A DNA stretch of 64,000 bases, taken from the NCBI GenBank assembly GCA_029243145.1, contig JAQWSQ010000077.1, positions 1-64,000 of the forward strand. The letters run 5' to 3'. Below, one piece after another: positions 1-20,209 of the stretch. How positions within the stretch are numbered: position 1 is the first letter of the stretch; the number at the start of each line of letters is the position of its first letter. The notes under the pieces are model-generated. The model worked only from the letters and a program-made list of their open reading frames with translations. It was not told the origin of the DNA and ran no database searches. The translations under genes and the position numbers were made by a program. The DNA is from Planctomycetaceae bacterium (GTDB taxonomy: Bacteria > Planctomycetota > Planctomycetia > Planctomycetales > Planctomycetaceae).

Positions 1-896
1 ACGGTGAGTGTTCCCGTGGTCATCAAACCCGCGTTGGTTTCGTCGAGGCTGGCGGTGTCGTCTCCGTTGGTGATGACGGGATCATCGTTGGTCCCGTTGA
101 TGGTGATGGTGACGGTGGCGTCAGCCATTGCGTTTTGTGAATCGACTGCTTGAATCGTGTAGGAGTCGTTGTCGGTCTCTCCGAATGCCAAAGAATCAAA
201 CACGTTTCCCGGGTTGTAGGTTAACGAACCATCAATGTTCAGAGTGACGGTGACGCCATCTCCCAGATCGACAGCACTTCCGCCGGGTGTCAATGCCATA
301 CCATTAATCGAATAAATCAACGTGCTATCATCGACATCGCTGAACAGGTTCGAGATGTTTAGATCGCTGTTGACCTCGTTCTCGCTGATTGTCTGCATCT
401 GGTCGGTGCCGACAGGAGGATCATTCAAACCGACAATAGTCAGGTTGACCGTTGCGATGGCGGTTCCCCCATTGCCGTCAGAAATGGTGTAGTCGAACGA
501 ATCCACAGCGGGCGGGTCGGTCACTGCCAAATTGTCAAAGGCGGTTCCGGGATCATAATCCAGTGTTCCGTCCATATTGAGACTAACGGTCGCACCGGAA
601 GTGAGCGCGATGGTATTGCCGTTCATCGGGTCGAACGCTGTACCGTTAATTTCGATCACCGACAGCATATCCAAATCGGGGTCTGAATCATTACTCAGAA
701 CATTGATATTGACTGACGTGTCTTCGTCCGTCATTGCCATATCATCCATGGCGACCGGCGCAGCAAGGACGATTCGATCTTCCAATCTCTCTGTGAGCAG
801 GAGAGGGGAGTTTTCTGGGTTGTGTTGAGTGGTGCTGGGATTGAGCCAAAACCTGGAAAAATCATTAAGTCGTTTTTGCCAGTAAATCCGTCTCAT
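1..896 (-). CDS. Giant cadherin/VCBS-like protein with LEDR-type N-terminus (partial)
   Basis: The frame reads leftward from an ATG at 896, which has an in-frame TAG immediately upstream, and runs off the window, so only the first ~298 residues are seen. The N-terminus is basic and aromatic (MRRIYWQKRLNDFSRFW) and is followed by LLLTERLEDRIVLAAP. That resembles the LEPR-XLL type N-terminal motif of giant planctomycete surface proteins. No ordinary hydrophobic signal peptide is visible. After this come at least two ~100-residue repeats with cadherin/VCBS hallmarks: DEDTSVNINVLSNDSDPD, GTLDYDPGTAFDNL, YTISDGNGGTA, and NGTNDDPVI as the linker. These folds usually bind calcium and serve in adhesion. 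The gene is divergent from the SecA-like/HlyD cluster, which makes it a candidate export substrate. The repeat family is clear. The export route is inference. Confidence 0.85.
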   Translation of the reverse strand, partial: MRRIYWQKRLNDFSRFWLNPSTTQHNPENSPLLLTERLEDRIVLAAPVAMDDMAMTDEDTSVNINVLSNDSDPDLDMLSVIEINGTAFDPMNGNTIALTSGATVSLNMDGTLDYDPGTAFDNLAVTDPPAVDSFDYTISDGNGGTAIATVNLTIVGLNDPPVGTDQMQTISENEVNSDLNISNLFSDVDDSTLIYSINGMALTPGGSAVDLGDGVTVTLNIDGSLTYNPGNVFDSLAFGETDNDSYTIQAVDSQNAMADATVTITINGTNDDPVITNGDDTASLDETNAGLMTTGTLT

Positions 897-2071: not shown

Positions 2072-3991
2072 ATGTTTGATTCTCTGACCTCAAGCTGGAT
2101 CACGAAACGACGATTAGGTCGCTATCGGCGTCTGATTAAGACTGTGCATAAGATCCAGGCTGGATTTCTCTCATGGAGTGATGAGGAATTACGAGCCGAG
2201 CGATTGTCTCTCAGTTTGCAGGCACGCTCTGGGGTTCAAAGAGAGAAGTTCCTTCCTCGCAGCTTCGCTTTGATCCGCGAGAGTGCGCGTCGAACGGTGA
2301 GCATGGAGCATTATGATGCTCAACTGCTCGGAGGTTGTGCGCTGGCCGAGGGATACATCGCCGAGATGGCCACCGGCGAAGGGAAAACATTCACTGCCAC
2401 ACTTCCTCTCTTTTTGTATTCACTCTTTGGACGCGGTGCTCATCTGGTGACCGCCAATGATTATCTTGCGGAACGCGATGCCGAGTGGGTTCGGCCAATC
2501 TTTGAGTTGCTGGGTGTGCAGGTCGGTTCGATCCTCCAGCAATCGAGCGATGCAGAACGTGCATTGGCTTATCAAGCGGACATCACTTACGGAACATTGC
2601 GTGAATTCACGTTTTATTTTTTACGGGAACAGTTGAGTCGTTCGCAGATCGATCACTCTCGTTCGAGTAATGATGATCGTGCGAGAAATCGCATTTCACC
2701 GGAGCGACGATTTCCCAGTGATCCCCCTTTCTTCTTGCTTGTTGATGAAGCGGACAGCTTGCTCATCGACGAAGCACGGACCCCTTTAATTATTAGTCTT
2801 CCGAGTGAGCATGATCCGACGTTTGGTGAGGACTGTTTTTTCTGGGCCAATCACATCGCCAGCAAGCTCGCATTATCGTCTGATTACGAGTTGGATCCAA
2901 AGGCTCGATCTGTGCGATTGAATCAAGCGGGAAAACAGAGCGTGAGAGAAAAATTGTCTCTCACACAATTGAGGAACCTCACTTTGCAAGAGGCGGAAGA
3001 GGCGGTTTGTCGTGCGCTTGTGGCTCAAAAGTATTTTTGTAGAGACGAACACTACGTGATTGACGACGATGAAGTTCAGTTGATTGATAGTTTCACGGGA
3101 CGAATTGCCGTTGGTCGAAAGTTGCGTCAAGGCGTTCATCAAGCGATTGAAGTTCGAGAAGGATTGCCTTTGACGAAGACTCAGGAACCTGCCGCACGAA
3201 TGACCGTGAATGATTACACGTCTCGATACCATCATCTCGCGGGAATGACGGGTACGGCGAGTGAAGTCTCGACCGCGATGAAAAAATATTATGACTGTCG
3301 CGTGTTGCCCATTCCCACCATTCGCCCCTGTCGGCGCGACATTCTTTCCGTGCAAATATTCGAGACCACTCAAGAAAAATATTGTGCCATCGCTGCCGAA
3401 ATTCTTGTCCTGATCGAGGAAGGCAGGTCTGTTTTAATCGGGACACGCACGATTCAACACTCCCTGTCTCTCTCCGAACATTTGAACAATTCGGGGATTG
3501 AGCATTTGCTTCTCAACGGGGTTCAGGATGTCAACGAGGCCGATATTATTTCGCAAACCGGTCAACCGTCTCGCGTCACAGTGGCGACCAATATGGCAGG
3601 ACGTGGGACCGATATTCATTTGTCGGATCAGGTTCGCGAGGCGGGCGGGTTACACGTCATCGGCACCGAGTTTCACGAGTCCGCGCGGATTGATCGACAA
3701 TTAGCCGGGCGTGCTGCACGGCAAGGCGATCCGGGAAGTTTCCGACAAATGGCGAGTTTCGAAGATTCGATCCTGATCGACGCTTGGGGAGAAGAGGTGG
3801 CTACGAAGCTCACACAAGATGCCCGCAAGGGTTTTCGGGTGAGTTACGCGGCTTCATTATTTCGGCAAGCACAACAGGACTTAGAACGCAGACAACGCCA
3901 CCAACTTCTCTTAATGCTCGAAAGCGAACGAAGACGGAGCGTGCAAAACATAGAGATGGGACGCGACCCTTGGCTGGATAGCGTTTATTGA
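2072..3991 (+). CDS. SecA-like preprotein translocase ATPase, shortened paralogue
   Basis: This encodes 639 residues with clear SecA architecture. The N-terminal nucleotide-binding fold has Walker A MATGEGKT (residues 99-106). A DEAD-type Walker B (LLVDEADSLLIDEARTPLI) lies near residue 223. AGMTGTA follows, then the second ATPase fold with VATNMAGRGTDIHLS and GRAARQGDPGSF. Canonical SecA is usually 800-950 residues. This one ends soon after the second ATPase fold with a short helical tail, and it lacks the long helical wing and the C-terminal Cys-rich SecB/lipid-binding motif. It is therefore probably a dedicated SecA paralogue, not the housekeeping motor. Its last bases overlap the convergent TolC-like gene by 7. 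I see no SecY partner. The ATPase family is certain, and the role in exporting neighbouring proteins is inference. Confidence 0.9.
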   Translation: MFDSLTSSWITKRRLGRYRRLIKTVHKIQAGFLSWSDEELRAERLSLSLQARSGVQREKFLPRSFALIRESARRTVSMEHYDAQLLGGCALAEGYIAEMATGEGKTFTATLPLFLYSLFGRGAHLVTANDYLAERDAEWVRPIFELLGVQVGSILQQSSDAERALAYQADITYGTLREFTFYFLREQLSRSQIDHSRSSNDDRARNRISPERRFPSDPPFFLLVDEADSLLIDEARTPLIISLPSEHDPTFGEDCFFWANHIASKLALSSDYELDPKARSVRLNQAGKQSVREKLSLTQLRNLTLQEAEEAVCRALVAQKYFCRDEHYVIDDDEVQLIDSFTGRIAVGRKLRQGVHQAIEVREGLPLTKTQEPAARMTVNDYTSRYHHLAGMTGTASEVSTAMKKYYDCRVLPIPTIRPCRRDILSVQIFETTQEKYCAIAAEILVLIEEGRSVLIGTRTIQHSLSLSEHLNNSGIEHLLLNGVQDVNEADIISQTGQPSRVTVATNMAGRGTDIHLSDQVREAGGLHVIGTEFHESARIDRQLAGRAARQGDPGSFRQMASFEDSILIDAWGEEVATKLTQDARKGFRVSYAASLFRQAQQDLERRQRHQLLLMLESERRRSVQNIEMGRDPWLDSVY

Positions 3992-6366
3992 CCCAACTCG
4001 TAATTCCACTCATACCAGGGAGCCGATGGCTGCGAGGGAGCGGGTGTTTGCTTGACTTGTGGAGGTGCCTTGGGGGACTCAGGAACTTCCGTTTCTGGTT
4101 GATCATCAATAAACTGAATCTCTTTTCCCAGTTCGGCAGCCTTCGACATGTTTTGCTGAGTGAGTGGGGTTTTCAAGTTTGGTGCGAGTGCTTGGATTTT
4201 AGGACTGTGTGAGACGCGTAGAATCTTAAGGTGAGCGTCCTCCTCGGTCTCATCCAGTGGGAAAGGTCGAGGGGCATTCGAGGTTGTTTCTGGCAGTGGA
4301 GGCAAATTATCAACTTTGCGAGGCACTGAAACAGGAACCGTCGGTTCTGATGGGAACGGATTCTCGAAGGTGCTGGTTGTCTCGCCGGGAACATCGTTTG
4401 TGACAGGTTCAATCGCGACCGACATTTCCCCTTGAGGCTCTATGTCCAAAGGAGATGTCGCCGGAAGCGGTACTTGCGGTTCGACTTCTCCGATACTGAT
4501 TGCTCTTGATGGATCTCCGTTCCAATGGGATTCACCTACAGTCGAATAGTTGTCCGTCAAAATCACATGGCGAAACGGGAGTAAACTTCCCTTTTCAAAG
4601 TGAATGTTCCGTAGTGCGGCTTCATGCTCGACCAATGATCGATAGTAGCTCGCTTTTGCATCGGCGAGTCGCGATTGAGCATCCAGAATTTCGTCAGGCG
4701 AATCGGTATCTTCATTGAGTGATGAGAAACGTTGTTGGGCAGAAATGAGACGGTTAAAACTGATTTTGTTCAGTTCTTGTGCTCGCTCCAATTCGGCCAC
4801 CGCGTTACTCAAATCATGAGCAATTTGACGTTCTTGTTGTCGTAACAACGCTCGTTCGCGAGCAATCTGAATCTCAAGATTGGTGACGGCAGCATGGCCT
4901 TGGCGAGTCCCAATAGGCACGGTCATTTCGACGCCCAACTCCCACTCTTGGAAATCGCCACCAAACAAGTTTTCGGTGGCTCCCCGATTTAGCGTGGTCG
5001 CTCCTGTGGCTGTGTCGCCGATGAGGTTATCACCAAATCCACGGAATCGATATCTGCCGAACATATCGAGACGTGGCTTTTTGAATTGCTGACTCGCTTC
5101 TTTCTGTAACTCCAGACTTTTCAATGCTTGTCGCTGTTTTTTCAATTCGGGACGCTGGGCGATTGCCTCGTGGATCAACGCATTCCAGTCGTATTCAATC
5201 GGCATGACTTTGGGTTCCGAGACAGGTCGAATAACCGATTCTTCTTTCATTGGCAAGCCCATCAAGAGTCGCAAGCGACGCTCGGCAACATACAGCCCTC
5301 CCGCTCCGGTAAACGTACCGGGACGGCTTCCATTACCGGTCTGAGTGGCGTTTTGCTGCCGTCCTGCCAACGCATTATACATGTCTTCTTCAAATCGATA
5401 ATACTGTTCACGAGCTTGCGCTTCTTTCGCAGCCGTGATTCCCTTTTGATCGATTCGCGAGATGGTTGATTTCCATGTCTTCAAGCTTTGATCGCGAGCA
5501 GCGAGTGAAGTATCGAGTAAGCGATAGGCGTAGAAAAGATCCCAATAGGCATTTTCGACATTGCTGATGAAGTCTCGCATACCAATTTCAAATTCCGAAA
5601 TCGCCATGTCGGTATTGATACGAGCGATGACAATCCCTTCGATGACTCCTGGGCGTCCATAAGGGCCTGCGATTCGATTGAATTTTGTTCCCGCACCTTG
5701 CATCAAGGGTTGTCGAACTTCCATTTCCACTTGGGTTCCCCACGAGTTGGGATATAAGTTTTGTGCCCGATTATTGTCATCGTAATCCACAATGCTTCGC
5801 GCGGAGAATTGAGTACCTGTTGCCGTCTTCTTGGAAAGCTCTAGCAGGTAATCGTGAGCGTCCTGCTGGAAGAGTTGTGTTCCTCCACCCACGAAGAAGT
5901 TGTTGAAGGGACGATCATTATTCTGGAACATGGCATTTGATCGCAGTCGAGCATCAAACTGACTTAATGCTGCCTCGACGCCCAATTGAGGGTCGGTTTC
6001 TGTCACTGCGCGGTCATAAACTGTATCGATCGTTGCCGGGGATGAGAGGACGGTACCTCCCAGATCGTGAAGAATGGTGGCATTTTGCAAAGCAATCTGA
6101 AGAGCCTCTTCTAAAGTGAGGTCCAGATAATCTTCGGGAAGTTCTCGACGAACGGTCCAAGGTTCTTGAGTCTGCACACTACTGGGATTCAGGTGTTCGT
6201 ATTTCTCAGCAGTATGGCTGGTGTACGACTCTTCCCACTTTAACTGCTGATACCCGGGTTCTTGGTCGGAAACTTTTTTCTTATGCAATAGGCGACTGTG
6301 ACAGCCAAGATTGAGAAATCCGGGCAGGATCAGCAATATTATGATGTAAACGGACCGGAAATTCAT
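3985..6366 (-). CDS. TolC-family outer membrane channel lipoprotein
   Basis: This encodes about 793 residues. I chose the ATG at 6366, which gives a lipoprotein signal ending in the lipobox LNLGC with Cys22. A TTG at 6381 is a possible alternative. The middle of the protein has the two repeats of the outer membrane factor family: long amphipathic helices with LTLEEALQIALQNA and AELERAQELNKISFNRLISAQQRF. The family forms trimeric channels through outer membrane and periplasm that dock onto HlyD-type adaptors. A C-terminal tail of roughly 200 residues is rich in Pro, Glu and Thr and probably disordered, which is unusual for TolC. The gene faces away from the GAF-HlyD gene across 262 bases and overlaps the SecA-like gene end to end. 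Confidence 0.85.
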   Translation of the reverse strand: MNFRSVYIIILLILPGFLNLGCHSRLLHKKKVSDQEPGYQQLKWEESYTSHTAEKYEHLNPSSVQTQEPWTVRRELPEDYLDLTLEEALQIALQNATILHDLGGTVLSSPATIDTVYDRAVTETDPQLGVEAALSQFDARLRSNAMFQNNDRPFNNFFVGGGTQLFQQDAHDYLLELSKKTATGTQFSARSIVDYDDNNRAQNLYPNSWGTQVEMEVRQPLMQGAGTKFNRIAGPYGRPGVIEGIVIARINTDMAISEFEIGMRDFISNVENAYWDLFYAYRLLDTSLAARDQSLKTWKSTISRIDQKGITAAKEAQAREQYYRFEEDMYNALAGRQQNATQTGNGSRPGTFTGAGGLYVAERRLRLLMGLPMKEESVIRPVSEPKVMPIEYDWNALIHEAIAQRPELKKQRQALKSLELQKEASQQFKKPRLDMFGRYRFRGFGDNLIGDTATGATTLNRGATENLFGGDFQEWELGVEMTVPIGTRQGHAAVTNLEIQIARERALLRQQERQIAHDLSNAVAELERAQELNKISFNRLISAQQRFSSLNEDTDSPDEILDAQSRLADAKASYYRSLVEHEAALRNIHFEKGSLLPFRHVILTDNYSTVGESHWNGDPSRAISIGEVEPQVPLPATSPLDIEPQGEMSVAIEPVTNDVPGETTSTFENPFPSEPTVPVSVPRKVDNLPPLPETTSNAPRPFPLDETEEDAHLKILRVSHSPKIQALAPNLKTPLTQQNMSKAAELGKEIQFIDDQPETEVPESPKAPPQVKQTPAPSQPSAPWYEWNYELGQ

Positions 6367-6628
6367 GGAATAGACAGTCAATTTCCACTAACAATAGATA
6401 TGTACAAAGTTCCCAGGGGCAGCACTGTTGATTAGATCGTCCTATTTGGAGTCAAATCTTTCGTTAAATTCCGCAGAACAGTGAAAACCCTTATTGATTA
6501 CCTAAATTAACACTCGATGATTTGACCTCGAATTCCGCGATTTTTACCACTTCATGGGGTTGAATTTGCTACATTTCAAGGCGTTTTCTCCTTCTCCTTC
6601 GGCTTAAATTCAGGCGGTTACAGCGAAG

Positions 6629-8641
6629 ATGGCTTCTTCCTCCGAGTTTACGGCCTCTCCAGATGGGTCAATAAATCCGCTGAATTTTGAAGATCGCATC
6701 CTGACTTTGGCGGAATTGCTCAAAAGCCAAGTCGATGTGACGACTTTTGAAAAAGCAATTCTCAAACATGCATTGGATGGATTTCATGCTCGTGGGGGAC
6801 TGATTTGGAAGCCGGTCCGCCAGAGCGATGAAAACTCGCTGGTTTTGCAGACGCAAGAGGGACAACTCCTACCGCAAACACATTTCGAGGGATTGGAGAC
6901 CGTTCGTCATGCAATGATCGAGTCTGGGGAACACAAAGTCGTTTATTTGAGCAGTTTGACTTCCGCGGAGCCGGTCTCTCCCACGACATCCGAATCACCT
7001 GGTAAGGTGATGTTGAAACCGTTAGTCATCGACGACCAAACTGTCGCTCTGTTGGAAATTCATCAACCGAGTGAACCGGAGATGGAATCGGGAGAAGCAT
7101 TTCTGGCTATGTTGGCGGAGTTGTATGGGGAATGTCTCAAGCATCAAAAACTCCAACAATTAGAAGATGAAAACCAACAGTGGCATCGGTTCGAAGAGTA
7201 TGCTTGCACATTACAAAAATTCTGGGATCCTTCAGATGTCTACGCTCACGTCATCGACGCGGGTCGTGAGCTTTGCGGCTTTGACCGGTTGACTCTCCTG
7301 CTTGGTTCAGGAAAACAGTGTCGAGTTCGGTTGGTCTCCACCACTGATGACCCGTCTCGACATTCTTTAACGATCCAAAAATTGCAAGACTTATCTAGGT
7401 TGTTGACGAGTGCCGACCAAGAGCTGCGTTATGACGGAGAGGTGGAACAAATTCTCGCCCCTCTCGTCCAGGAGAATCTGAGTCAAGTTCTCGATGCGAC
7501 TCATGCTCGAGTATTTTATGCCATTCCACTCAGGTCGGTCGATACTGACCAATCAACCGGGCAAAACGCTGTTACGGGAATGTTGGTGGCGGAAAATTTT
7601 CGGGGTGACCTTGAAGCCTCCGCTTTTTCCCGTTTCCAAAGAGTTGCCGAGCTATCGGCTCCCGCAATCGTGCGTGCGGCCTATTGGGAAAACTTACCCG
7701 GAAGATGGTTTCTTCATGCCTGGCTTTCGCTGATTCGGACGCCATTTCAACCGAAGCGCACGGCTTGGCGATGGGCGCTCTTCGCGGTTTTATTTGTGGT
7801 GTTTCTGCTGGTCTTTGTGCCGGCAAAGTTTCGAGTCAAATCGACCGGGCAACTCCAAGCCGTCGATCAACACCATGTTTTCGCCCCCGTGAAAGCCTTC
7901 GTGATTGATGTTCATTTTCAGGACGACCAACCCATCGTGGTCGATCAACGTCTGCTGACGCTCGATGATCTCGACTTGAAACTGAAACTTGAGGAAGTTC
8001 GTGGAGAACTCGAACGCGTAGGGACTCGGCTGACGAACATTCAAACGTTGCGATCTCAGATGATTCGAAACAGTTCGGATTCGACGGAAGCCGATGAACT
8101 TGCCGCCGAAGCCAATGAACTCAGCATCAAAAAAGTGTCGTTGACCGCCCAATGGGATATTCTGAAAACGAAAGAGAGCCAACTGGAAATTCTGTCTCCC
8201 ATCTCGGGAACATTACTGACATGGAATCCTCAAGAGCTACTTAGTTCGCGACCTGTGGACGCGGGGCAAATTTTGCTGACGCTGGCCGATGTGGAGGGAG
8301 ACTGGCAATTAGAAGTGAAGATACCCGAGGAGGAGATGGGGCATATCCGTCAGGCACTCAGTGAGAACTCCGATCAACTTGTGATTGACTATTCCCCGGA
8401 TGCTCAAGTGGGCCAGATCTTTCAGGCGACTCTCGTGGAAGATCAGATTGCGCGACGCTCTGAAATTGATCCAGACATGTTACATTATTTTCGAGCGACT
8501 GTTGCGGTTTCCGTCCAAGACAATTATGCCCCCGTCTCGGGGGCCGGCGTCACCGTTCGCATCGATTGCGGTTCTCGGGCATTAGGGTATGTTTTGTTTC
8601 ACGATCTGTATGAATGGACTCAGAAAAATCTGTTGTTCTGA
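6629..8641 (+). CDS. GAF-domain / HlyD membrane-fusion protein
   Basis: This encodes 670 residues in two halves. The first ~350 residues look cytoplasmic. Residues about 187-345 resemble a GAF domain (YACTLQKFWDPSDVYAHVIDAGRELCGFDRLTLLL and MLVAENFRGDLEASAF), and an earlier region (40-170) may be a second degenerate one. One transmembrane helix spans about 381-398. The rest is a periplasmic adaptor with a lipoyl-like hairpin (VKSTGQLQAVDQHHVFAPVK and ISGTLLTWNP), a coiled coil (about 450-510) and a beta-barrel. HlyD proteins bridge an inner-membrane machine to TolC. Fusion to a GAF sensor suggests the bridge responds to a cytoplasmic ligand, which is inference. It is first in a three-gene run of adaptors. 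Confidence 0.8.
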   Translation: MASSSEFTASPDGSINPLNFEDRILTLAELLKSQVDVTTFEKAILKHALDGFHARGGLIWKPVRQSDENSLVLQTQEGQLLPQTHFEGLETVRHAMIESGEHKVVYLSSLTSAEPVSPTTSESPGKVMLKPLVIDDQTVALLEIHQPSEPEMESGEAFLAMLAELYGECLKHQKLQQLEDENQQWHRFEEYACTLQKFWDPSDVYAHVIDAGRELCGFDRLTLLLGSGKQCRVRLVSTTDDPSRHSLTIQKLQDLSRLLTSADQELRYDGEVEQILAPLVQENLSQVLDATHARVFYAIPLRSVDTDQSTGQNAVTGMLVAENFRGDLEASAFSRFQRVAELSAPAIVRAAYWENLPGRWFLHAWLSLIRTPFQPKRTAWRWALFAVLFVVFLLVFVPAKFRVKSTGQLQAVDQHHVFAPVKAFVIDVHFQDDQPIVVDQRLLTLDDLDLKLKLEEVRGELERVGTRLTNIQTLRSQMIRNSSDSTEADELAAEANELSIKKVSLTAQWDILKTKESQLEILSPISGTLLTWNPQELLSSRPVDAGQILLTLADVEGDWQLEVKIPEEEMGHIRQALSENSDQLVIDYSPDAQVGQIFQATLVEDQIARRSEIDPDMLHYFRATVAVSVQDNYAPVSGAGVTVRIDCGSRALGYVLFHDLYEWTQKNLLF

Positions 8642-8669
8642 TTTGTTTCTCCCTCAGGCGAGAGGATTC

Positions 8670-9548
8670 ATGAAAGCATTAGTTATTGTTGGGTGTTTCT
8701 TACTGTTGACGATGCAAGTTGGGTTAGCAGAGTCGCAGTCGATCCCTGTCAAATTTGTGCAAGTCACATTATTAGATGAAGCCGATTTAGCGGCTCCCGA
8801 ATCGGGACGCTGTTTCGAACTGCTGGTCAAAGAAGGTCAGCTTATTGATCGGGGGGCTTTGCTGGTACGCTTGGATGACACCCAAGAAAGCATTGAGGTG
8901 ACCCACGCCACCAAAGAATTGGAAATCGCCCGATTGAAGTCGACGAATAAAATCGATGTCGAGATTGCGCAAAAAGCCGAAGGTGCGGCCAAATCGAAAT
9001 TGAAGCGAAAAGAAGACTCACGGGCGAAATATCCGAAAAGTATCCCTGAAGAGGAAATTGAAGAACTTAGATTTCTCGCACAAAAGACGGCCTCCGAAAT
9101 CGCCAAAGCCAAGTTCGATTTGGAACTCGCTCAGCACGAAGCAGAACTGGCCGCAAACGCGCTGCTGTCTGCCAAAGATAAATTAGATCGTCGCCAGGTT
9201 CGATCTCCCATCAACGGGATGGTGGTCGAAGTCGATGTCAATGAAGGGGAGTGGGTCGAAACCGGACGAAAGTTGGTCAGAGTGGTTCGTCTTGATCGCC
9301 TGCGTGTGGCGGGATTTGTTCCGTTAAAATATCTGCCAGACGAATTGATCGGTCAGGATGCCGAGTTAACATTGATTCGTGAAGGCCGCGAAAATGTCAG
9401 TCTGACGGTTCAAATCGGGTTTGTCAGTCCTGAAGCGAATCCCGTCTCGGGTGAACGACGCATTTGGGTTGAGATCGATAACTCCAAGGGAACGCTCTTT
9501 CCCGGCATGACTGCCAAGTTAGAAATCAATGCTGCCAAGAAACCTTAA
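8670..9548 (+). CDS. HlyD/RND-type periplasmic adaptor
   Basis: This encodes about 292 residues. The ATG at 8670 is preferred over an upstream in-frame start at 8589 because it follows GAGAGGA and opens a signal peptide (MKALVIVGCFLLLTMQVGLA). The mature protein has a split lipoyl domain (ELLVKEGQLIDRGALLVRLD and RSPINGMVVEVDVNEGEWV) around a charged coiled coil of about 100 residues. A beta-barrel and membrane-proximal segment follow, ending GTLFPGMTAKLEI. The layout matches membrane-fusion proteins of tripartite pumps. It starts 29 bases after the GAF-HlyD gene and ends 19 bases before the protease gene, so the three are almost surely one operon. Confidence 0.85.
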   Translation: MKALVIVGCFLLLTMQVGLAESQSIPVKFVQVTLLDEADLAAPESGRCFELLVKEGQLIDRGALLVRLDDTQESIEVTHATKELEIARLKSTNKIDVEIAQKAEGAAKSKLKRKEDSRAKYPKSIPEEEIEELRFLAQKTASEIAKAKFDLELAQHEAELAANALLSAKDKLDRRQVRSPINGMVVEVDVNEGEWVETGRKLVRVVRLDRLRVAGFVPLKYLPDELIGQDAELTLIREGRENVSLTVQIGFVSPEANPVSGERRIWVEIDNSKGTLFPGMTAKLEINAAKKP

Positions 9549-9566: not shown

Positions 9567-11774
9567 ATGTTGACTGAATCATCCGCAACACGTCCGCTTC
9601 GCCTGCGCCTTCGTCCAGATTTGGAGATTCGTGATTCGAGTTCTTCGGCTGAGAAAATCTGGATCATTCGCGATCCCGTCACGCTCAGATATTTTCGCTT
9701 AAACCGAGAGGAGCATGAGCTTCTCAATGGACTGGATGGCTCCAGAAGTCTCGTCGATATTCAAAGGCATTACAACGCCTTATTCAGCCCGCTGCATCTT
9801 GAAATGCAGCAATTGATGGCGTTCCTCTCACGACTTTATGCCGAGGGGTTACTTGTCTCGGACGCTCCCGCTCAAGCGATTCCTTTGCAAATACGTCGCA
9901 AAAAGAACCGGTTTCATCGCTCACTCGCACTGTGGTCAAATCCTTTGGCGATCCGAGGTCCGGGAGTCTCTCCCGGACCAATTCTGGATAGAGTGACAGC
10001 CTGTTTGGGCGGGCTCTTCACCTTCGCAGGCTTCTTGCTTTCATTGATTCTGTTTTCAACGGCTCTCTCGCTGGTGATCACCCATCGAGAGTCGGTCAAC
10101 GCCCGGCTCCCTCAGATGCAGTCGTTTTTCGAAGGTAAGAACTTCTTGTTGCTGCTCGCAGTTCTTGCCATTGTGAAAGTGTTTCACGAATTGGGGCATG
10201 CGGCATCCTGCCGAAAATTTGGAGGACGTTGCCATCAAATCGGAGTGATGTTTTTGATGTGTGTGCCGACGCTCTTTTGCGACGTGTCTGATGCCTGGTT
10301 GATTCCCCAGAGAATGAAACGCGTCATTATATCAGCGGCGGGCATGTATGTGGAAATGATTTTGGCGTCGGTGGCTACAATCTTGTGGTGGAATAGTTCT
10401 CCGGGAATCTTCAACGCCGTCTGCTTGAATGTGATGCTGGTTTGCTCCATCTCAACGGTGTTGATCAACGGGAATCCGTTTCTTCGCTATGATGGTTACT
10501 ACATTCTCTCTGACTTGGTTAATATTCCCAACCTCAAGCAGCGTTCATCGAGTTGGTGGAAAATGACTTTGAAGTCGGTTTGTCTGGGTCTCAAGTCATC
10601 TCGCCAAGAATTACCATCGTCCAAACGGCATACTTTTTTGTTTTGTGTTTACGGTTTCGCTTCCACGGTATTTCGGTTGTGTTTGCTGACGATGATTTTG
10701 TGGTTTGTGTATCAATTTCTGGAGCAACACAAACTGGCTGTGTTTTTCCCGCCGTTATTGCTCATTGTACTTTCAGGCACTTTGGGTCCACCTCTCAAAA
10801 GAACCGGTCAATTGCTGAGTGATCCACTCGCCCGCGCTCAAATGAGACCGTTTCGGATGGCGTCTACGATTTTCGGTGGTTTGTTGCTCGCTCTGTTTTG
10901 TGGCTTCGTACCGTTGCCGACTTATGTCTATTGCCCCGCGCTCATCGAGCCGTACGAAGCTCAACATGTCTACGCTTACTATCCAGGACGATTGAAGTCA
11001 TCCATTGCTGAGAACTCTACGGTGTCTTCGGGAGATTTAATCTATGAGCTGGAAAATGACACATTAGAATACGAGTTGGAAGAACTCAGCGGTCAACTTG
11101 AAGTCCAAAAAACACACCTGCGAAGCCTCGAGCAAAGAAGCTCAGAGTCTGTTGAAATTCAAAACCAAATCCCGCTCGCTCAAAAATTCCTCAAAGATCT
11201 CCAACAGCAATACCAACAACGATTGGATCAGAAATCGCAATTAACGGGTTTCGCTTCTATGGATGGCATCGTTTATCCACCACCGATTTCACATCAACCC
11301 AGCGAGACCAGTTTAGAACTCTCTTACTACACCGGCTCGCCTTTCAATCCTCAAAATTCAGGATGTCAGATCGAAGCGGGGACATTACTCTGCACGATCG
11401 GTCTTCCTGAAAAGATGCAGGCCACCCTGCTGGCCGACGAACAAACTTTGCAATTGATCAAACAGGGTCAACAGGCTTCATTGCTACCGACGGCAAGTAC
11501 ATTGGGCGTGATTGATGGTCACGTCAGCGCGATTGGACGCACTCGACAGGAAACAGTCCCCGATCAATTTCTTCCCGATGAAAGTATTGTGATTGTGCCG
11601 AGAGTTGATGGGACCAGTGCGCCGGTCAATCCACTCTGGGAAGTTCGCGTTCGGTGGACTGAGTCAACGCAAGACCTCCCTCCGGGAATGCGCGGCACAG
11701 CCCGCATTCGGGTCGATTCGATGACGCTACTGACACGTTTTCGTCGCTGGGTGAACGCAACGTTTCGTACTTGA
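9567..11774 (+). CDS. PqqD-like / M50 zinc protease / HlyD fusion
   Basis: This encodes 735 residues after a strong AGGAGGG site. Residues about 15-98 look like a PqqD domain (WIIRDPVTLRYFRLNREEHE and LLNGLDGSRSLVDIQRHYN), a fold known to bind peptides. Residues about 145-400 form a site-2-protease-like M50 membrane domain with zinc motif HELGH at 207-211 and a second metal motif NPFLRYDGYY at 303-312. After further transmembrane helices comes a HlyD-like region with lipoyl half-motifs, a coiled coil (ELEELSGQLEVQKTHLRSLE) and a barrel. Similar proteins are often labelled 'peptide zinc metalloprotease' in genomes. The arrangement suggests a protease that reads a peptide signal and is tied to an export channel. 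The domains are seen, and the role is inference. Confidence 0.85.
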   Translation: MLTESSATRPLRLRLRPDLEIRDSSSSAEKIWIIRDPVTLRYFRLNREEHELLNGLDGSRSLVDIQRHYNALFSPLHLEMQQLMAFLSRLYAEGLLVSDAPAQAIPLQIRRKKNRFHRSLALWSNPLAIRGPGVSPGPILDRVTACLGGLFTFAGFLLSLILFSTALSLVITHRESVNARLPQMQSFFEGKNFLLLLAVLAIVKVFHELGHAASCRKFGGRCHQIGVMFLMCVPTLFCDVSDAWLIPQRMKRVIISAAGMYVEMILASVATILWWNSSPGIFNAVCLNVMLVCSISTVLINGNPFLRYDGYYILSDLVNIPNLKQRSSSWWKMTLKSVCLGLKSSRQELPSSKRHTFLFCVYGFASTVFRLCLLTMILWFVYQFLEQHKLAVFFPPLLLIVLSGTLGPPLKRTGQLLSDPLARAQMRPFRMASTIFGGLLLALFCGFVPLPTYVYCPALIEPYEAQHVYAYYPGRLKSSIAENSTVSSGDLIYELENDTLEYELEELSGQLEVQKTHLRSLEQRSSESVEIQNQIPLAQKFLKDLQQQYQQRLDQKSQLTGFASMDGIVYPPPISHQPSETSLELSYYTGSPFNPQNSGCQIEAGTLLCTIGLPEKMQATLLADEQTLQLIKQGQQASLLPTASTLGVIDGHVSAIGRTRQETVPDQFLPDESIVIVPRVDGTSAPVNPLWEVRVRWTESTQDLPPGMRGTARIRVDSMTLLTRFRRWVNATFRT

Positions 11775-14394: not shown

Positions 14395-14801
14395 CCGATC
14401 CCAAAAAACTCTCAAACGAGGAATGGCGTGAAAAACTAACTCCCGAGCAATATGCGGTCTTACGCGAACAAGGGACCGAACGACCTTATACGGGTGAGTA
14501 CGATCAGCATTATGATTCGGGGACTTATTCATGTGCCGCCTGCGGCATGGAGTTGTTCGAGTCGGAAACCAAGTTCAACTCACGTTGCGGTTGGCCAGCT
14601 TTTTACGCAGCACAAGCGGAGGACCGGGTCAATCTGCACAGCGACACAACGCTCGGCATGGTGCGGACGGAAGTGACTTGTGCGGGTTGCGACTCTCACT
14701 TGGGGCATATTTTTGATGATGCCCCGCAAACACCAACCGGACAGCGATACTGTATCAATTCGGTCTGTCTGAATTTTACCTCTCACGCAGACAATGCTTA
14801 G
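14391..14801 (+). CDS. msrB: Peptide-methionine (R)-S-oxide reductase
   Basis: This encodes 136 residues, full length for MsrB. It reduces the R-form of methionine sulfoxide in proteins, using thioredoxin as reductant. Four zinc-binding cysteines form two CxxC pairs (C48/C51 and C97/C100). The catalytic cysteine is C121 in RYCINS, and the RCGWPAFY and HLGHIF motifs are present. No signal peptide is seen, so it is probably cytoplasmic. The start overlaps the upstream monooxygenase gene in ATGA. Its TAG stop overlaps the stop of the convergent signal peptidase gene by 4 bases. Confidence 0.95.
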   Translation: MTDPKKLSNEEWREKLTPEQYAVLREQGTERPYTGEYDQHYDSGTYSCAACGMELFESETKFNSRCGWPAFYAAQAEDRVNLHSDTTLGMVRTEVTCAGCDSHLGHIFDDAPQTPTGQRYCINSVCLNFTSHADNA

Positions 14802-16651
14802 CGAATGCGTTCCATGCGCGGGACGTTGGGATAAAACGGAACTCGCATTTTGGGATAGCGTTCGTCACCGGTCTCCCCTCGATGATAGGTAATCGGATAC
14901 CCTTCACCGTCGTTCATGAACGGCATGCCGTGCGGCCAGTAGATGAAGAAGGCTTTACCCAACATGGCATTACGGGGGACGGCATGCGTGTCGTCCCACA
15001 AGCGACTGTCCAGACTGGCAGGGCTGTTGTCACCCAGTACGAAAAATTCGTCATCTTTCAAAGGTGGGAATTCCACAGAATGCTCGTACTTGAGATAGAG
15101 TTCGGCGTACTTTTCAGGTTCATCGAGAGCAAACATTAAATCCATCTGCGAGGTTCGGTCGGGAATGTCGAATTCATCTCCCAGCTCGCGTTGGCGAGAC
15201 ATGCGTTCGTACCGCTCCATTTGCACCCGAATACTTTGCTCGGCTCGATAAAAGATATCTCGTGTCAGTTTCAGATTGGAAACATTCAACTCCGCGTCAG
15301 TGACGGCAATTCCAACCGGTGATAAATCACGATTTGTCGGTAAACTGGTCGCGGGAGCTTCATATTCACCTTTGCCGGGAAACGGAATCAGCTTCCCATC
15401 GATCCACAGGTTTAACCGATTGTCGACATTCGAGAACGTCAGCGTATGGGAGCCAACCCCCGAGAAAGACGTTTCCACTTCATCGAGAACTTTCTGTTGT
15501 TCTAACGCATAATCGAAGTATTCGAGAGTGACCTTGCCTGTTTTCATATTAAATCGACATTGGTAATCGCGAATTCCTTCGGTTAATTCGAGGATCAGTT
15601 CGCCGTTCTCCCCGGTGTCGGTGATATCGATGGAGCAAGACATGGTCAGGTCGCCAACCCAGAAATGTCCACTACTGCTGTGTCGCCGTGCCTGCGTTTC
15701 GTTGTAGCCGCAAAAATCGCTGATTAATTTCGGTGTGGGTTTTGTTTCAAACGGGAGTGCAGGATCATTCATGACCGCGCCCCAAGCTTCTTCATCGGGG
15801 ACAAAGTGCCGGTACTTCAGCCAGCGTGTTTGATCGGCGGACTCATTGCGTGTGATGGCATAGACTCTTTGTTCGGTATCGGCCGACCATCCTCCCGTTT
15901 CGGGTTCTAACCCCGAACCACTGTCGTCGGTATGATCGTGTTTCACAGCCGCCCAACGCTCGGGCCATCCCTTTTCCAGAAGTAACTTTTCAGGATGATT
16001 GTTGTCATGAACAATCATTTGCAGTGAGAGCTGTTTGTAGGGATCGTCTTTCCGCAGAATCTGCCACGCATCGGTTTCGTTTTTTCGGGCATAAACATCT
16101 CCACCCTCGATTAATAAATACTCGTTCGGCAAACCGACCAATCGTTTGATGAAATTGCGCATCGGTTCTTCAGGGTTTTTGAAGACGACAACATCCCAGC
16201 GGTCAGGATCGCTAATCTCGTAAGGAAATTTGTTGACAAGAATTCGGTCGCCATGAAAGACGGGAGTATCGCGAACCGTATTTTCATAACGGCAATTGGG
16301 GCAGACTGAGGTGTTGATACGCGCATTGGGTAGAAGTGATTCGGAGTCCCCGTTAACTTCTTGACTGGCGCCGATGTTGTAATGCCATTGGCATTGTTCG
16401 CAGTCGATCTCTTTATGTCGTCCATTGAGAGTTTCGGCCATCGATCCTGTGGGGATCACGAAGGCTTCCGCTTCAAAGGTGCGAAACAAAAAGGCAAGAA
16501 TGAAAGCGACCACCAACGACTCGATAGTCTCTCGCGCCGGTGAGGGCCTCACGTATTTGCTTTTCGCTTTCGGCTTCGCCGCAACGGGGGTTTTGGCGAG
16601 ATCGGCAGATTGTTTTTTGCGGGTTGATTTGCTCATCCAAGCGGCATTCAT
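14798..16651 (-). CDS. lepB: Signal peptidase I, enlarged (copy A)
   Basis: This encodes 617 residues, against about 200-325 in typical bacteria. A basic N-tail leads to one transmembrane helix (44-60). Next comes the Ser box FVIPTGSMAETL with nucleophile Ser70, then the Lys box FIKRLVGLP with general base Lys169, and near the end the GDNSPASLDSRLW box. Between Ser and Lys are two CxxC pairs (C84/C87, C117/C120), like a zinc ribbon. An insert of roughly 300 residues before the GDN box contains beta-rich LamG/concanavalin-like sequence (HTLTFSNVDNRLNLWIDGKLIP). It cleaves signal peptides on the outer face of the inner membrane. It follows copy B on the same strand. The start could instead be the ATG at 16636. 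Confidence 0.9.
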   Translation of the reverse strand: MNAAWMSKSTRKKQSADLAKTPVAAKPKAKSKYVRPSPARETIESLVVAFILAFLFRTFEAEAFVIPTGSMAETLNGRHKEIDCEQCQWHYNIGASQEVNGDSESLLPNARINTSVCPNCRYENTVRDTPVFHGDRILVNKFPYEISDPDRWDVVVFKNPEEPMRNFIKRLVGLPNEYLLIEGGDVYARKNETDAWQILRKDDPYKQLSLQMIVHDNNHPEKLLLEKGWPERWAAVKHDHTDDSGSGLEPETGGWSADTEQRVYAITRNESADQTRWLKYRHFVPDEEAWGAVMNDPALPFETKPTPKLISDFCGYNETQARRHSSSGHFWVGDLTMSCSIDITDTGENGELILELTEGIRDYQCRFNMKTGKVTLEYFDYALEQQKVLDEVETSFSGVGSHTLTFSNVDNRLNLWIDGKLIPFPGKGEYEAPATSLPTNRDLSPVGIAVTDAELNVSNLKLTRDIFYRAEQSIRVQMERYERMSRQRELGDEFDIPDRTSQMDLMFALDEPEKYAELYLKYEHSVEFPPLKDDEFFVLGDNSPASLDSRLWDDTHAVPRNAMLGKAFFIYWPHGMPFMNDGEGYPITYHRGETGDERYPKMRVPFYPNVPRMERIR

Positions 16652-16736: not shown

Positions 16737-18380
16737 CTATCTCACAAACCTGATTCGGGAAAAATCGGGTTTCCGATACGGTATCTGCCAAGTCCTCCAG
16801 CCTATTGTTTCTTGCGTCGAAGGTAAATGCACGAGAAAAGGCTTACCGATCAATAGTTTACGAGGAACGGTCGGTTGTTCCCATCGTCGCGAATCCGAAG
16901 AGACGCGGCTATTGTCTCCCAAAACAAAATAGTGATCAGCGGGAACCTGAAATGCCTGTTCCGAGGCGTATTCCCCATTTTGAGAGGTGTAGTAGATATC
17001 GCGGTAAAGTTTCAGTGTTTTGAGTTCAAATTCGGCGGATCCCGAGATTCGAGTGATCTCAAAGGGCGTATGTGGTGAATCGCTGGCAGAATTCAAAGGC
17101 CACGGCTCCATCACGATGCTTTTGTTGATGGCGACAAGTAATCGGTCATCAAAAGAGGATATTTCAAACAGAAACCCGTGAGCATCCAATCTGAAATGCT
17201 CTTCCATCAACGGTTCCTCCTCCTGAGGCCGATAGAGCCCAACCCGTTGGGCTTTGAGGTCAATCTCGCAGCGAAGAAAGCCAGTCGGCGTGTTCAACTC
17301 GATAAAGATGACACCCGAGGATTCGCTGGGAACGATGTTTGTTTCCAGTGAAAATTCGTGGATGGGAGAGAGCCGGTTTGTCGGCATGTCGTGGTTGTAG
17401 GCGGTGAAGTCGGTAACATGAGTACGATGTGACTTAACCAGCAATTGATCGACGGCTGACTGATAGTCATCAGTTGGAATCACTTTTCGTAACTTTTGGT
17501 GAGTCACTGCGGAGAGGACACCCGTCGCAATTAGGCAATTTTCTTCCAATCGGACTCCCGGAAAGGGAGGCTCAGGTGCGAAAGGGAACGGAGTTTTCCT
17601 AGGAATGAACGCCGTCGCCACTTGCTCGTGCATGGACTCTGGAAGACAGACTGTCGATTCATGGACACCACCGAATCTTAAGGTATGACGATACGTTAGC
17701 CAGTCATCTTCATATTCTGGTCGGTATTTCCAACCGGAATCTGTGGGCGTCCAACCAGATATGAGAGTATCCGAAGACCAGCGTCCTGCCCAAGTCTCGG
17801 AGTCGGGTGGTTGATAAGCCGAGTCGAAGACAAGCACTCGTTGGGCGCGTTGTTCTTCGAGACTCTTTTGCACGATCTTGCCATCGACCCAAAGATTACC
17901 ATCCCGAATGAGGACTTCTTCTTCGGGTAAGCCGACGACCCGTTTGATGTAAGTTTCTCGCGGTTCGTTTGGATTCCGAAAAACGATGACTTCTCCTCGT
18001 CGCGGGTTTCGAAACTGATAGGCGTTCTTCCAAACGAGTAAGTGATCTCCCCGGTTTATGGGTTGGTTTGATAAGTCACTTTCGTTCGCCATGCAGTTGG
18101 GACACGCCGCAAAATCGTCTGTTTCAATCAGAGAGTCTTCGTCGAACTCAGTCCCCACCGCAAACTGAAATTGACACTGCGGACAAACGACACGTTTTTG
18201 CTCACCATAGTAATGTGGTGCCATCGAGCCGGTGGAGATCAAATATCCTTCCACGAGAAACGTACGCACGAGCAGGACGGCAATCAATAGCGACAAGACA
18301 GGGTCGAACGCCTGGCGAAACCCGCGCGTAAACTCGGTGTTCGAATTGGGTAAGCGTGCAGGGTTAGGGTCGGTCATCAT
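16737..18380 (-). CDS. Signal peptidase I, enlarged (copy B)
   Basis: This encodes about 547 residues. I chose the ATG at 18380 after CGGAA. A TTG at 18410 overlapping the lepA stop is possible. The design is the same as copy A: a transmembrane helix (29-46), Ser box YLISTGSMAPHY with Ser52, two CxxC pairs (C66/C69, C93/C96), Lys box YIKRVVGLPEEE with Lys146, a long beta-rich insert, and the closing GDNSRVSSDSRRW box. It lies directly downstream of lepA, an arrangement like the lepA-lepB operon of proteobacteria. The two copies are clear paralogues but well diverged, so they may serve different substrates. Confidence 0.88.
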   Translation of the reverse strand: MMTDPNPARLPNSNTEFTRGFRQAFDPVLSLLIAVLLVRTFLVEGYLISTGSMAPHYYGEQKRVVCPQCQFQFAVGTEFDEDSLIETDDFAACPNCMANESDLSNQPINRGDHLLVWKNAYQFRNPRRGEVIVFRNPNEPRETYIKRVVGLPEEEVLIRDGNLWVDGKIVQKSLEEQRAQRVLVFDSAYQPPDSETWAGRWSSDTLISGWTPTDSGWKYRPEYEDDWLTYRHTLRFGGVHESTVCLPESMHEQVATAFIPRKTPFPFAPEPPFPGVRLEENCLIATGVLSAVTHQKLRKVIPTDDYQSAVDQLLVKSHRTHVTDFTAYNHDMPTNRLSPIHEFSLETNIVPSESSGVIFIELNTPTGFLRCEIDLKAQRVGLYRPQEEEPLMEEHFRLDAHGFLFEISSFDDRLLVAINKSIVMEPWPLNSASDSPHTPFEITRISGSAEFELKTLKLYRDIYYTSQNGEYASEQAFQVPADHYFVLGDNSRVSSDSRRWEQPTVPRKLLIGKPFLVHLPSTQETIGWRTWQIPYRKPDFSRIRFVR

Positions 18381-18406
18381 CCATGTTCCGACATGAAACG
18401 TGAGAA

Positions 18407-20209
18407 TCAATCGTCTTCGGTTGCATCCAAAACGCTCAGGAATGCTTTTTGGGGGATCTCCACTTCACCGAATTGTTTGAGTCGCTTCTTACCTTCTTTT
18501 TGCTTCGCCCACAATTTTCGTTTCCGGGTGATGTCTCCACCGTAACATTTGGCGGTCACATTCTTACGCAAAGCCTGGATGGTTTCCCGAGCGATGATGC
18601 GTCCACCTATTGCGGCTTGAATCGGAATCTCGAACATGTGTTTCGAGATCTCTTCTTTGAGCCGTTTGACGAGACCTCGTCCGCGACGATCAGCCTGATC
18701 GCGATGCACAATGGTTGAGAGTGCGTCGACCCGGTTCCCTTTGACGAGAATATCCATCTTCACCAAGTCAGCTTTGCGGAACCCGATGATTTCATAATCC
18801 ATCGTGCCGTAACCACGTGTCAGGCTTTTCAGCTTGTCGTGCATGTCGTAGACGACTTCTGCCAGCGGTAATTCCCACGTTAATTGAGCACGTTTCGGCC
18901 CGAGGAATTCGGTATTCACATAAATGCCACGGCGGTCGGAACACATCTGCATAATTCCACCAATGTGTTCTGATGGTGTGATGAAACTGACTTTGGCGAA
19001 CGGTTCGCGAAGTTCGTCAATCACGCCGGCATCGGGGACATCTTGTGGATTGTCGATAACAACCACATCGCCATTCGTTTTCAGAAGCTCGTACGTGACG
19101 TTGGGTGCTGTCTGGATGAGATCGATGTCTTGTTCGTCTTCGAGCCTTTGTTGCACAATTTCCATGTGCAGCATGCCGAGGAATCCGCATCGAAATCCAA
19201 ATCCGAGGGCATCACTGGTTTCCGGCAGATAAGAAAAACTCGAATCGTTCAAACTCAGCTTTTGGAGTTCGCCGCGCAGCTTTTCGAAGTCGGTTGCATC
19301 GATGGGATACATCCCACAGAAGACCATTTGTTTCGGCTGCTGATATCCGGGAAGTGCCTGACTCGCTTTATTGGAAATGTCGGAGACCGTATCGCCGATA
19401 TGGATATCTCCCAATTCCTTAATGCCGGTGAGAATGTAGCCGACTTGTCCCGGACCGAGCTTGTCGCACTTTGTCATTCCCGGTCGGAATTGTCCAATTT
19501 CGAGAACATCAAACTCACCGCCGTTTTTCATGAAGCAGACCTTCTGCCCTTTGCGGACCGACCCTTCTTTGATACGGACGTAAGTGATCACCCCTTTGTA
19601 GACATCGTATTTCGAATCGAACACCAGTGCGCGAAGTGGATCGTCTGCTTTTCCATCAGGGGGTGGAACACGTTCGATGATTGCATCGAGAACCGCTTCG
19701 ACACCCAGCCCGGTTTTCGCAGAGACCAACAAAGCATCATCGGGATCCAGTCCGATCATGGTTTCGATCTCTTCCAGAACTTCCTCAGTCCGCACCACGG
19801 GAAGATCAATTTTATTGATGACCGGCAGGATGGTCAGATTGGCATTGATGGCCGCGTAAGCATTGGCGACTGATTGAGCCTGAACACCCTGAAACGCATC
19901 TACAAGCAGCAATGCGCCTTCACACGCTGCCAGAGATCGCGAGACTTCATAATGAAAGTCGACATGTCCGGGTGTATCGATCAGATTCAGCTCGTATTTC
20001 TCGCCTTTGTAAATGTATTCGATGGCAACCGTCCTTGCTTTGACGGTGATGCCACGTTCCTGTTCGACATCCAGATCGTCGAGCAGTTGTTCTTTGAATT
20101 CGCGTTGTGTAATCGCACCGCTCTTCAGCAAAAACTGGTCAGCCAGTGTGCTTTTACCGTGATCGATGTGGGCTACGATCGAAAAGTTACGAATGTATTT
20201 GTTGTCCAT
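18407..20209 (-). CDS. lepA: Elongation factor 4 (LepA)
   Basis: This encodes 600 residues from the ATG at 20209, the usual LepA length and start (MDNKYIRNFSIVAHIDHGKS). The frame remains open 54 codons upstream, but that extension is polar and unlike the family. GTPase motifs are AHIDHGKST (G1), DTPGHVDF (G3) and NKIDLP (G4). The C-terminal LepA-specific domain ends GKKRLKQFGEVEIPQKAFLSVL. LepA acts on ribosomes during translation. It heads the operon that continues with the two signal peptidases. Confidence 0.97.
   Translation of the reverse strand: MDNKYIRNFSIVAHIDHGKSTLADQFLLKSGAITQREFKEQLLDDLDVEQERGITVKARTVAIEYIYKGEKYELNLIDTPGHVDFHYEVSRSLAACEGALLLVDAFQGVQAQSVANAYAAINANLTILPVINKIDLPVVRTEEVLEEIETMIGLDPDDALLVSAKTGLGVEAVLDAIIERVPPPDGKADDPLRALVFDSKYDVYKGVITYVRIKEGSVRKGQKVCFMKNGGEFDVLEIGQFRPGMTKCDKLGPGQVGYILTGIKELGDIHIGDTVSDISNKASQALPGYQQPKQMVFCGMYPIDATDFEKLRGELQKLSLNDSSFSYLPETSDALGFGFRCGFLGMLHMEIVQQRLEDEQDIDLIQTAPNVTYELLKTNGDVVVIDNPQDVPDAGVIDELREPFAKVSFITPSEHIGGIMQMCSDRRGIYVNTEFLGPKRAQLTWELPLAEVVYDMHDKLKSLTRGYGTMDYEIIGFRKADLVKMDILVKGNRVDALSTIVHRDQADRRGRGLVKRLKEEISKHMFEIPIQAAIGGRIIARETIQALRKNVTAKCYGGDITRKRKLWAKQKEGKKRLKQFGEVEIPQKAFLSVLDATEDD

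Follow-up and report, generated by a model that had tools for sequence, protein, structure and literature searches.

A fused leader-recognition, intramembrane protease and adaptor protein as the candidate core of an ABC-free exporter of giant proteins in Planctomycetota

What would a planctomycete do with a protein that carries a peptide-recognition fold, an intramembrane zinc protease and an export adaptor in a single chain? The question is raised by the gene at positions 9567-11774 (forward strand) of a 64,000-nucleotide stretch, hereafter the window, of contig JAQWSQ010000077.1 from the Planctomycetaceae bacterium assembly GCA_029243145.1. The gene is an intact open reading frame (ORF) with an ATG start and encodes 735 residues, here called the fusion protein. 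An earlier note on this DNA had taken it for a possible leader-processing exporter, analogous to peptidase-containing bacteriocin transporters but without an ABC motor. We arrive at a related reading, which we regard as rather likely: the fusion protein would form, in the inner membrane, the core of a type-I-like exporter that works without an ABC pump, its cargo being giant surface proteins that are rich in repeats and carry an N-terminal leader of the LExR (LEPR-XLL) type.

Domain architecture and protease site of the fusion protein

The three-domain anatomy given in the earlier note is borne out by Pfam matches to M50 and HlyD_3, by PqqD profile matches in homologues and by predicted folds. 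In a Pfam scan of the fusion protein alone, Peptidase_M50 matched residues 197-333 over its cut-off (3e-7), HlyD_3 came slightly under its own (8e-4; 20.5 bits against a cut-off of 22.2) and PqqD was not detected at E<=1. Among 30 aligned homologues, M50 and HlyD_3 were found in all, and PqqD (PF05402) at E<=0.1 in 16, with a best value of 6e-6. M50 was thus recovered directly, and PqqD in part of the homologues but not in the single sequence; taken together, the homologue profiles and the predicted fold described below support the PqqD assignment, and neither of the refuting conditions set in the earlier note came true.

A model of the full chain, built with AlphaFold2 from 30 homologue sequences (mean predicted local distance difference test score 83.8), recovered three regions: a RiPP recognition element (RRE; RiPP, ribosomally synthesized and post-translationally modified peptide), a site-2 protease (S2P) and a MacA-type adaptor. 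In VIA alignments of this model, residues 11-98 (9597-9860, +) aligned with the leader-bound lasso-peptide B1/RRE structures 5v1v (Z 10.5, 84 aligned residues, 2.5 Å) and 6jx3 (Z 10.1), in agreement with the three-stranded beta sheet and three helices of leader-bound RREs. A Foldseek search with the whole model gave only adaptors among the 50 matches listed, and the N-terminal domain was therefore also folded separately. The seven top Foldseek matches of the isolated domain were RRE/PqqD chains, including PqqD 5sxy (best value 2.5e-3, none at E<=0.001), and its VIA scores were Z 10.4 against 5v1v and Z 8.2 against 5sxy. On the predicted structure, residues 11-98 are a PqqD/RRE fold and a predicted leader-binding domain.

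The S2P domain comprises residues 131-387 (9957-10727, +). Within it, residues 185-321 aligned with the RseP orthologue 7w6y (Z 10.7), residues 137-385 with SpoIVFB 8vjl (Z 10.0) and residues 131-387 with S2P 3b4r (Z 9.6). The periplasmic adaptor domain of the HlyD/MacA type at residues 428-723 (10848-11735, +) matched HlyD_3 and, over residues 428-726, aligned with MacA 9qgy (Z 15.9), in agreement with the hairpin, lipoyl and barrel domains expected of an adaptor. The two motifs lie where the earlier note had placed them: the zinc-binding and catalytic HELGH at residues 207-211 (10185-10199, +) and NPFLRYDGYY, with the third zinc ligand D309, at residues 303-312 (10473-10502, +). H207, the catalytic E208, H211 and D309 were unchanged in 30/30 homologues, and HExxH and the distal aspartate were retained in all 12 aligned relatives from proteobacterial plasmids. 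The fusion protein has both elements in a transmembrane core, as expected of an M50/site-2 protease, and judged from these residues its protease looks intact. No PDZ domain was reported by Pfam.

Giant proteins with an LExR leader

Very long ORFs near related fusion genes share an N-terminal stretch that is basic, poorly hydrophobic and ends in LExR-x-x-L, and this stretch is the NCBIfam motif LEPR-XLL (NF012209). We compared 792 ORFs of at least 250 residues from 100 planctomycete loci with the module (L031-L050 and L061-L140) with 396 ORFs from 40 arbitrary 20-kb regions of 17 same or related genomes. A regular expression for the leader gave 20 matches in 19 of the 100 module loci, 19 of them genuine by eye, and matched three control ORFs, of which one was genuine by eye. 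By these by-eye counts the enrichment was 19/792 versus 1/396 (Fisher p 0.007); it was also seen in the same-genome subset (6/175 versus 1/396, p 0.004) and for ORFs of at least 1300 residues (16/792 versus 1/396, p 0.017), test and control loci being partly dependent in that some of the L061-L140 records repeat genomes of L031-L050. Among the rejected matches, that in L072 was a proline-rich frame with no leader and was excluded before the leader profile A2, that in L142 was internal and not N-terminal, and two of the three control matches were judged not genuine by eye.

The window has a candidate cargo of its own. The ORF at 3-896 (-), which runs off the contig end, encodes the N-terminal 298 residues of a repeat protein that starts MRRIYWQKRLNDFSRFWLNPSTTQHNPENSPLLLTERLEDRIVLAAPVA and continues with Big_9/cadherin/VCBS repeats. 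Its leader motif RLEDRIVLAA occupies residues 37-46 (759-788, -), and profile A2 matched positions 759-806 (-) with E 0.018. A sister species has the gene in the same place, and its first 52 residues are identical at 49 positions (17 nucleotide changes, 3 amino acid changes), unlike the repeats, which have diverged to 129 identities in 355 columns. The hydropathy of the leaders is low, with 12-residue maxima of 0.13-1.74 (mean 1.2) as against 2.1-2.9 for three window ORFs with signal-peptide-like starts. The leaders are thus without a Sec-like hydrophobic core, in keeping with an export path different from classical Sec.

Relatives of the fusion protein on proteobacterial plasmids show the same association. 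A tblastn search gave 82 plasmid records, and we looked at 15 loci. In ten annotated loci in which the upstream gene could be seen, a giant protein is encoded on the same strand to the 5' side (Pseudosulfitobacter, Methylosinus, Alisedimentitalea, Thalassospira, Variovorax, Azospirillum, Mesorhizobium, Kosakonia, Burkholderia and E. coli). By annotated coordinates, the giants reach about 12,900 residues in Pseudosulfitobacter and about 16,200 in Variovorax, and two of the plasmid giants carry the RefSeq name LEPR-XLL. All 11 readable N-termini of giants, those of the ten loci and of Tistrella, contained LE[PAS]R, or IEPR in Thalassospira. Three loci had no readable N-terminus, those of Sinorhizobium, where the giant frame is present but its start is not in view, of Rhizobium johnstonii and of Pseudohalocynthiibacter (the records here include H2, with the N-terminus outside the view, and H62 and H16, with the cargo outside it). 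The annotated start of the Alisedimentitalea giant (L199) seems too late, as an LEPRLLLAA leader lies in frame upstream of it.

The co-occurrence of leader and exporter was counted in 244 Planctomycetota genomes of at least 90% completeness, with E<=1e-20 for a fusion profile and E<=0.01 for NF012209, the latter because this model of 24 positions is too short for strict cut-offs. At E<=0.01, NF012209 matched none of 14 control genomes; at E<=0.001 it matched only 13 of the 59 relatives of the window's genome, and leaders as divergent as that of the window escape the search. The fusion was present in 75 of the 244 genomes, LEPR-XLL in 34 and both in 32 (Fisher 5e-17, uncorrected for relatedness). 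Outside the class, 23 of 25 LEPR-XLL genomes had the fusion, and all 14 families in which LEPR-XLL occurs include one or more fusion-bearing genomes. In a 6.1-Mb relative from the same phylum (G188), 18 LEPR-XLL matches stand against two fusion genes, and one exporter may therefore serve many cargos. In another genome, G270, an RRE-only match lies inside a 616-residue frame (G270:C71:13330-13536), which may be the system in split form.

The bacteriocin analogy of the earlier note is not supported where the cargo is concerned. The proteins associated with the module are of surface type, giant and rich in repeats, with an N-terminal LExR leader, and a bacteriocin-like peptide is probably not what is exported.

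The gene cluster and its short SecA

The fusion gene stands in a cluster that would supply further parts of an export path. A gene for a 670-residue GAF-HlyD adaptor protein (6629-8641, +; HlyD_3 1.3e-5, GAF_3 0.001 and below cut-off), which is a conserved neighbour in related loci, is followed by one for a second adaptor of the HlyD/RND-MFP type (8589-9548, +; HlyD_3 1.4e-17 and RND_mfp 3.8e-32, over cut-off). These two ORFs share 53 bases (8589-8641), and the true HlyD start is probably a later Met, which would give a signal peptide. Divergent from them is a gene for a TolC-type outer-membrane factor of 798 residues (3985-6381, -; OEP 7e-19). Type I secretion of giant adhesins such as SiiE and LapA uses TolC and HlyD adaptors to cross both membranes in one step. 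The locus has the HlyD adaptor and TolC in common with it; it differs in that a dedicated ABC exporter is absent from the six cluster genes profiled, that the candidate signal is N-terminal and not C-terminal, and that a membrane-embedded protease sits in the adaptor chain. The search for ABC genes was confined to these six genes, the rest of the genome not having been searched, and no RND, MFS or ABC pump was found among them.

The absence of an ABC motor in the earlier note stands for the cluster genes profiled, but a SecA-type ATPase 5.6 kb upstream of the fusion gene, beyond the divergent TolC gene, had been overlooked. This gene (2072-3991, +) encodes a short SecA paralogue of 639 residues with matches to SecA_DEAD (2.8e-85), P-loop_SecA and SecA_PP_bind. 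We aligned ten short SecAs with the genome's own SecA, a frame of 1187 residues. The two nucleotide-binding domains are retained, as is the preprotein cross-linking domain, whereas in all ten everything past the first scaffold helix is missing, and nearly all end in G(Q/R)DP(Y/W)LD. Among the missing parts are the helical wing, the C-terminal zinc tail and the two-helix finger, the element that acts in SecY. Among the 59 relatives, 57 have the fusion and 52 a short SecA (read from a table as a frame under 1000 residues with over 300 bits), and all 52 also carry the fusion. The two relatives without the fusion, G001 from the same genus and G003, are also without the short SecA. Of the 37 fusion-bearing genomes outside the class, at least 21 have the short SecA beside the fusion gene, and by BLAST it is adjacent in four plasmid loci. 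Two of these plasmid short SecAs (L185:17966-19990 and L186:17114-19030), with 38-40% BLAST identity to that of the window, bear the RefSeq/PLSDB annotation prepilin peptidase. On this analysis the short SecA could stand in for an ABC motor, a role for which Kamneva et al. (2015) had proposed it.

The order of recognising, cutting and passing on, as read in the earlier note, is also for us the most economical interpretation, because the RRE, S2P and adaptor domains in one chain adjoin TolC, adaptors, SecA and proteins with a shared leader. We infer the following steps. The cytosolic RRE/PqqD domain would capture the leader of a nascent or unfolded giant protein and set it against the intramembrane S2P site (HExxH...D), where it may be cut near the conserved block LExR-x-x-L-(S/N/D/A)-A. 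Where present, the stripped-down SecA would push the chain, and the fused adaptor arm, HlyD, GAF-HlyD and TolC would form the conduit over the periplasm and outer membrane.

Other genes and records around the system were also noted. Between the giant gene and SecA lies a small conserved ORF (1298-1993, +) with a 203-residue counterpart in the sister species and no match to a Pfam or NCBIfam family. Downstream, two adjacent ORFs (14798-16651 and 16737-18410, both -) look signal-peptidase-I-like by eye, and both contain CxxC pairs as well as a long insert. In four alphaproteobacterial plasmid loci a small DUF3467 protein is encoded directly before the adaptor genes, in three of them after the giant gene (L186:12636-12956, L190:12600-12896, L193:11685-11990 and L211:7641-7985), and it is a possible secretion chaperone. 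The plasmid matches included 18 Escherichia and 8 Citrobacter records, and the one such plasmid that was opened, an E. coli IncF plasmid (L210:4244-10539), encodes a giant Ig-like protein, TolC, two adaptors and an RRE-S2P-HlyD protein.

Alternative explanations and known systems

Several observations weigh against an exporter of LExR giants. The regular expression was devised after hits had been seen, and 81 of the 100 planctomycete loci had no LExR gene in their flanks, many of which are truncated. NF012209 matched nothing in the window's own genome and was absent from the N-terminus of the window's giant at E<=1 (model threshold 17 bits), so that this leader is LEPR-like by profile (E 0.018) and by eye only. 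Two genomes, G143 and G270, carry LEPR-XLL without a full fusion, a laxer search having given mainly weak adaptor-type matches, and co-occurrence alone is no proof that the RRE reads the LExR leader. On the Magnetospirillum plasmid pMSR-1 the neighbour is a 492-residue repeat protein without the leader. Five fusion-bearing relatives among the 59 carry only the housekeeping SecA, and six of the ten plasmid loci lack a local SecA (Thalassospira, Variovorax, Azospirillum, Kosakonia, Burkholderia and, by annotation, E. coli); SecA is therefore not universal to the system.

The chief rival keeps the same exporter and cargo, with the M50 domain as an inner-membrane pore or scaffold that does not cut, and we consider it unlikely. 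A mere pore would not need HExxH and the distal aspartate, which are invariant in the 30 homologues and kept in the 12 distant relatives, and no S2P fold is known to act as a protein-conducting pore. On the other side, no other channel gene was found in the profiled cluster, and Kamneva et al. (2015; PMC4452313) argue that SecA cannot form the pore and that the M50 protein has transmembrane helices. A different role, close to that in the earlier note, would be a RiPP-type maturase and exporter for a small peptide, in which a short precursor is handled by RRE and S2P in the manner of daptide or epipeptide clusters. The closest NCBIfam models are indeed those of the daptide protease (NF041824; 178.4 bits over residues 27-388) and YydH/LiaK (NF058609; 50 bits), and all 30 homologues match both, but the scores miss the curated cut-offs of 300 and 225. 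The six profiled cluster genes include no RiPP-modifying enzyme (no systematic search of small ORFs was made). With the best family model missed at 178 of 300 bits and a giant protein as the recurrent neighbour, a role in small-peptide maturation becomes less likely, and we judge it improbable.

Still less probable is regulated intramembrane proteolysis, in which the S2P would cut a membrane-bound regulator while the adaptor part only senses or anchors. The S2P fold is common to RseP and SpoIVFB and a cluster protein has a GAF domain, which would suit such a role; the recurrent TolC, further adaptors, SecA and giant proteins, and the lack of a Pfam-reported PDZ domain, speak against it. The least probable of the alternatives is a small-molecule efflux or envelope stress pump with giant neighbours by coincidence. 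The adaptor domains do resemble MacA and EmrA, but the profiled cluster genes include none of the pumps named above, and 32 of the 34 LEPR-XLL genomes have the fusion.

The exporter proposed here for LExR giants can be set beside several known systems. The C39 ABC bacteriocin exporters follow the same proposed logic, a single chain that recognises the leader, cuts it and exports the cargo, but here there is no ABC domain, the protease is a zinc S2P and not a cysteine C39 enzyme, and the cargo has thousands of residues. The daptide metalloprotease and YydH/LiaK families likewise have an N-terminal RRE-like region and an S2P core; unlike in these, a HlyD adaptor is fused here, with TolC, adaptors and SecA alongside. 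The module itself is not new, since Kamneva, Poudel and Ward (2015; PMC4452313) described it from gene neighbourhoods. Their secondary SecA_DEAD/type-I-related module has the same genes (short SecA, M50/HlyD protein, HlyD, GAF-HlyD and sometimes OEP), occurs in Planctomycetes and Proteobacteria and lacks ABC, and the window's cluster has the genes that define it. SecA was proposed as the ATPase and the M50 protein as the pore, and the role of the module was called completely unknown. Methylobacterium extorquens AM1 is a carrier of the module named in that paper. A term search of its text gave no PqqD, and the sections consulted name no cargo; added here are the RRE, the intact-looking protease site, the link to LExR giants and the map of the SecA truncation.

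Among open-licence papers in PubMed Central (PMC), we found none that gives the RRE identity, the LExR cargo link or the SecA truncation, none on PqqD with M50 and HlyD or on a site-2 protease with PqqD and giant-protein secretion, and a search on daptides gave nothing relevant to the fusion protein. The main texts of RRE-Finder and of the 2025 RRE paper do not mention M50, HlyD or a metalloprotease. LEPR-XLL, the leader of the candidate cargo, appears in the accessible parts of the literature found as a domain label only, with no export function given.

For a module whose role had been unexplained, this reading supplies a cargo and a signal, both of them likely, together with a mechanism that can be tested, and an export route is offered for the LEPR-XLL giant proteins, for which we found no published one. 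We suggest more tentatively that the system is a separate class of one-step secretion, in which an N-terminal LExR sorting tag would be read by a RiPP-type domain and removed by an intramembrane protease within an adaptor channel, and which would export giants of up to about 16,000 residues from Planctomycetota and Proteobacteria, the ABC pump being replaced by a stripped SecA or some other source of energy. If so, many tagged proteins of a cell would leave through a single exporter, and a RiPP-type leader reader would have its place in the secretion of full-size proteins.

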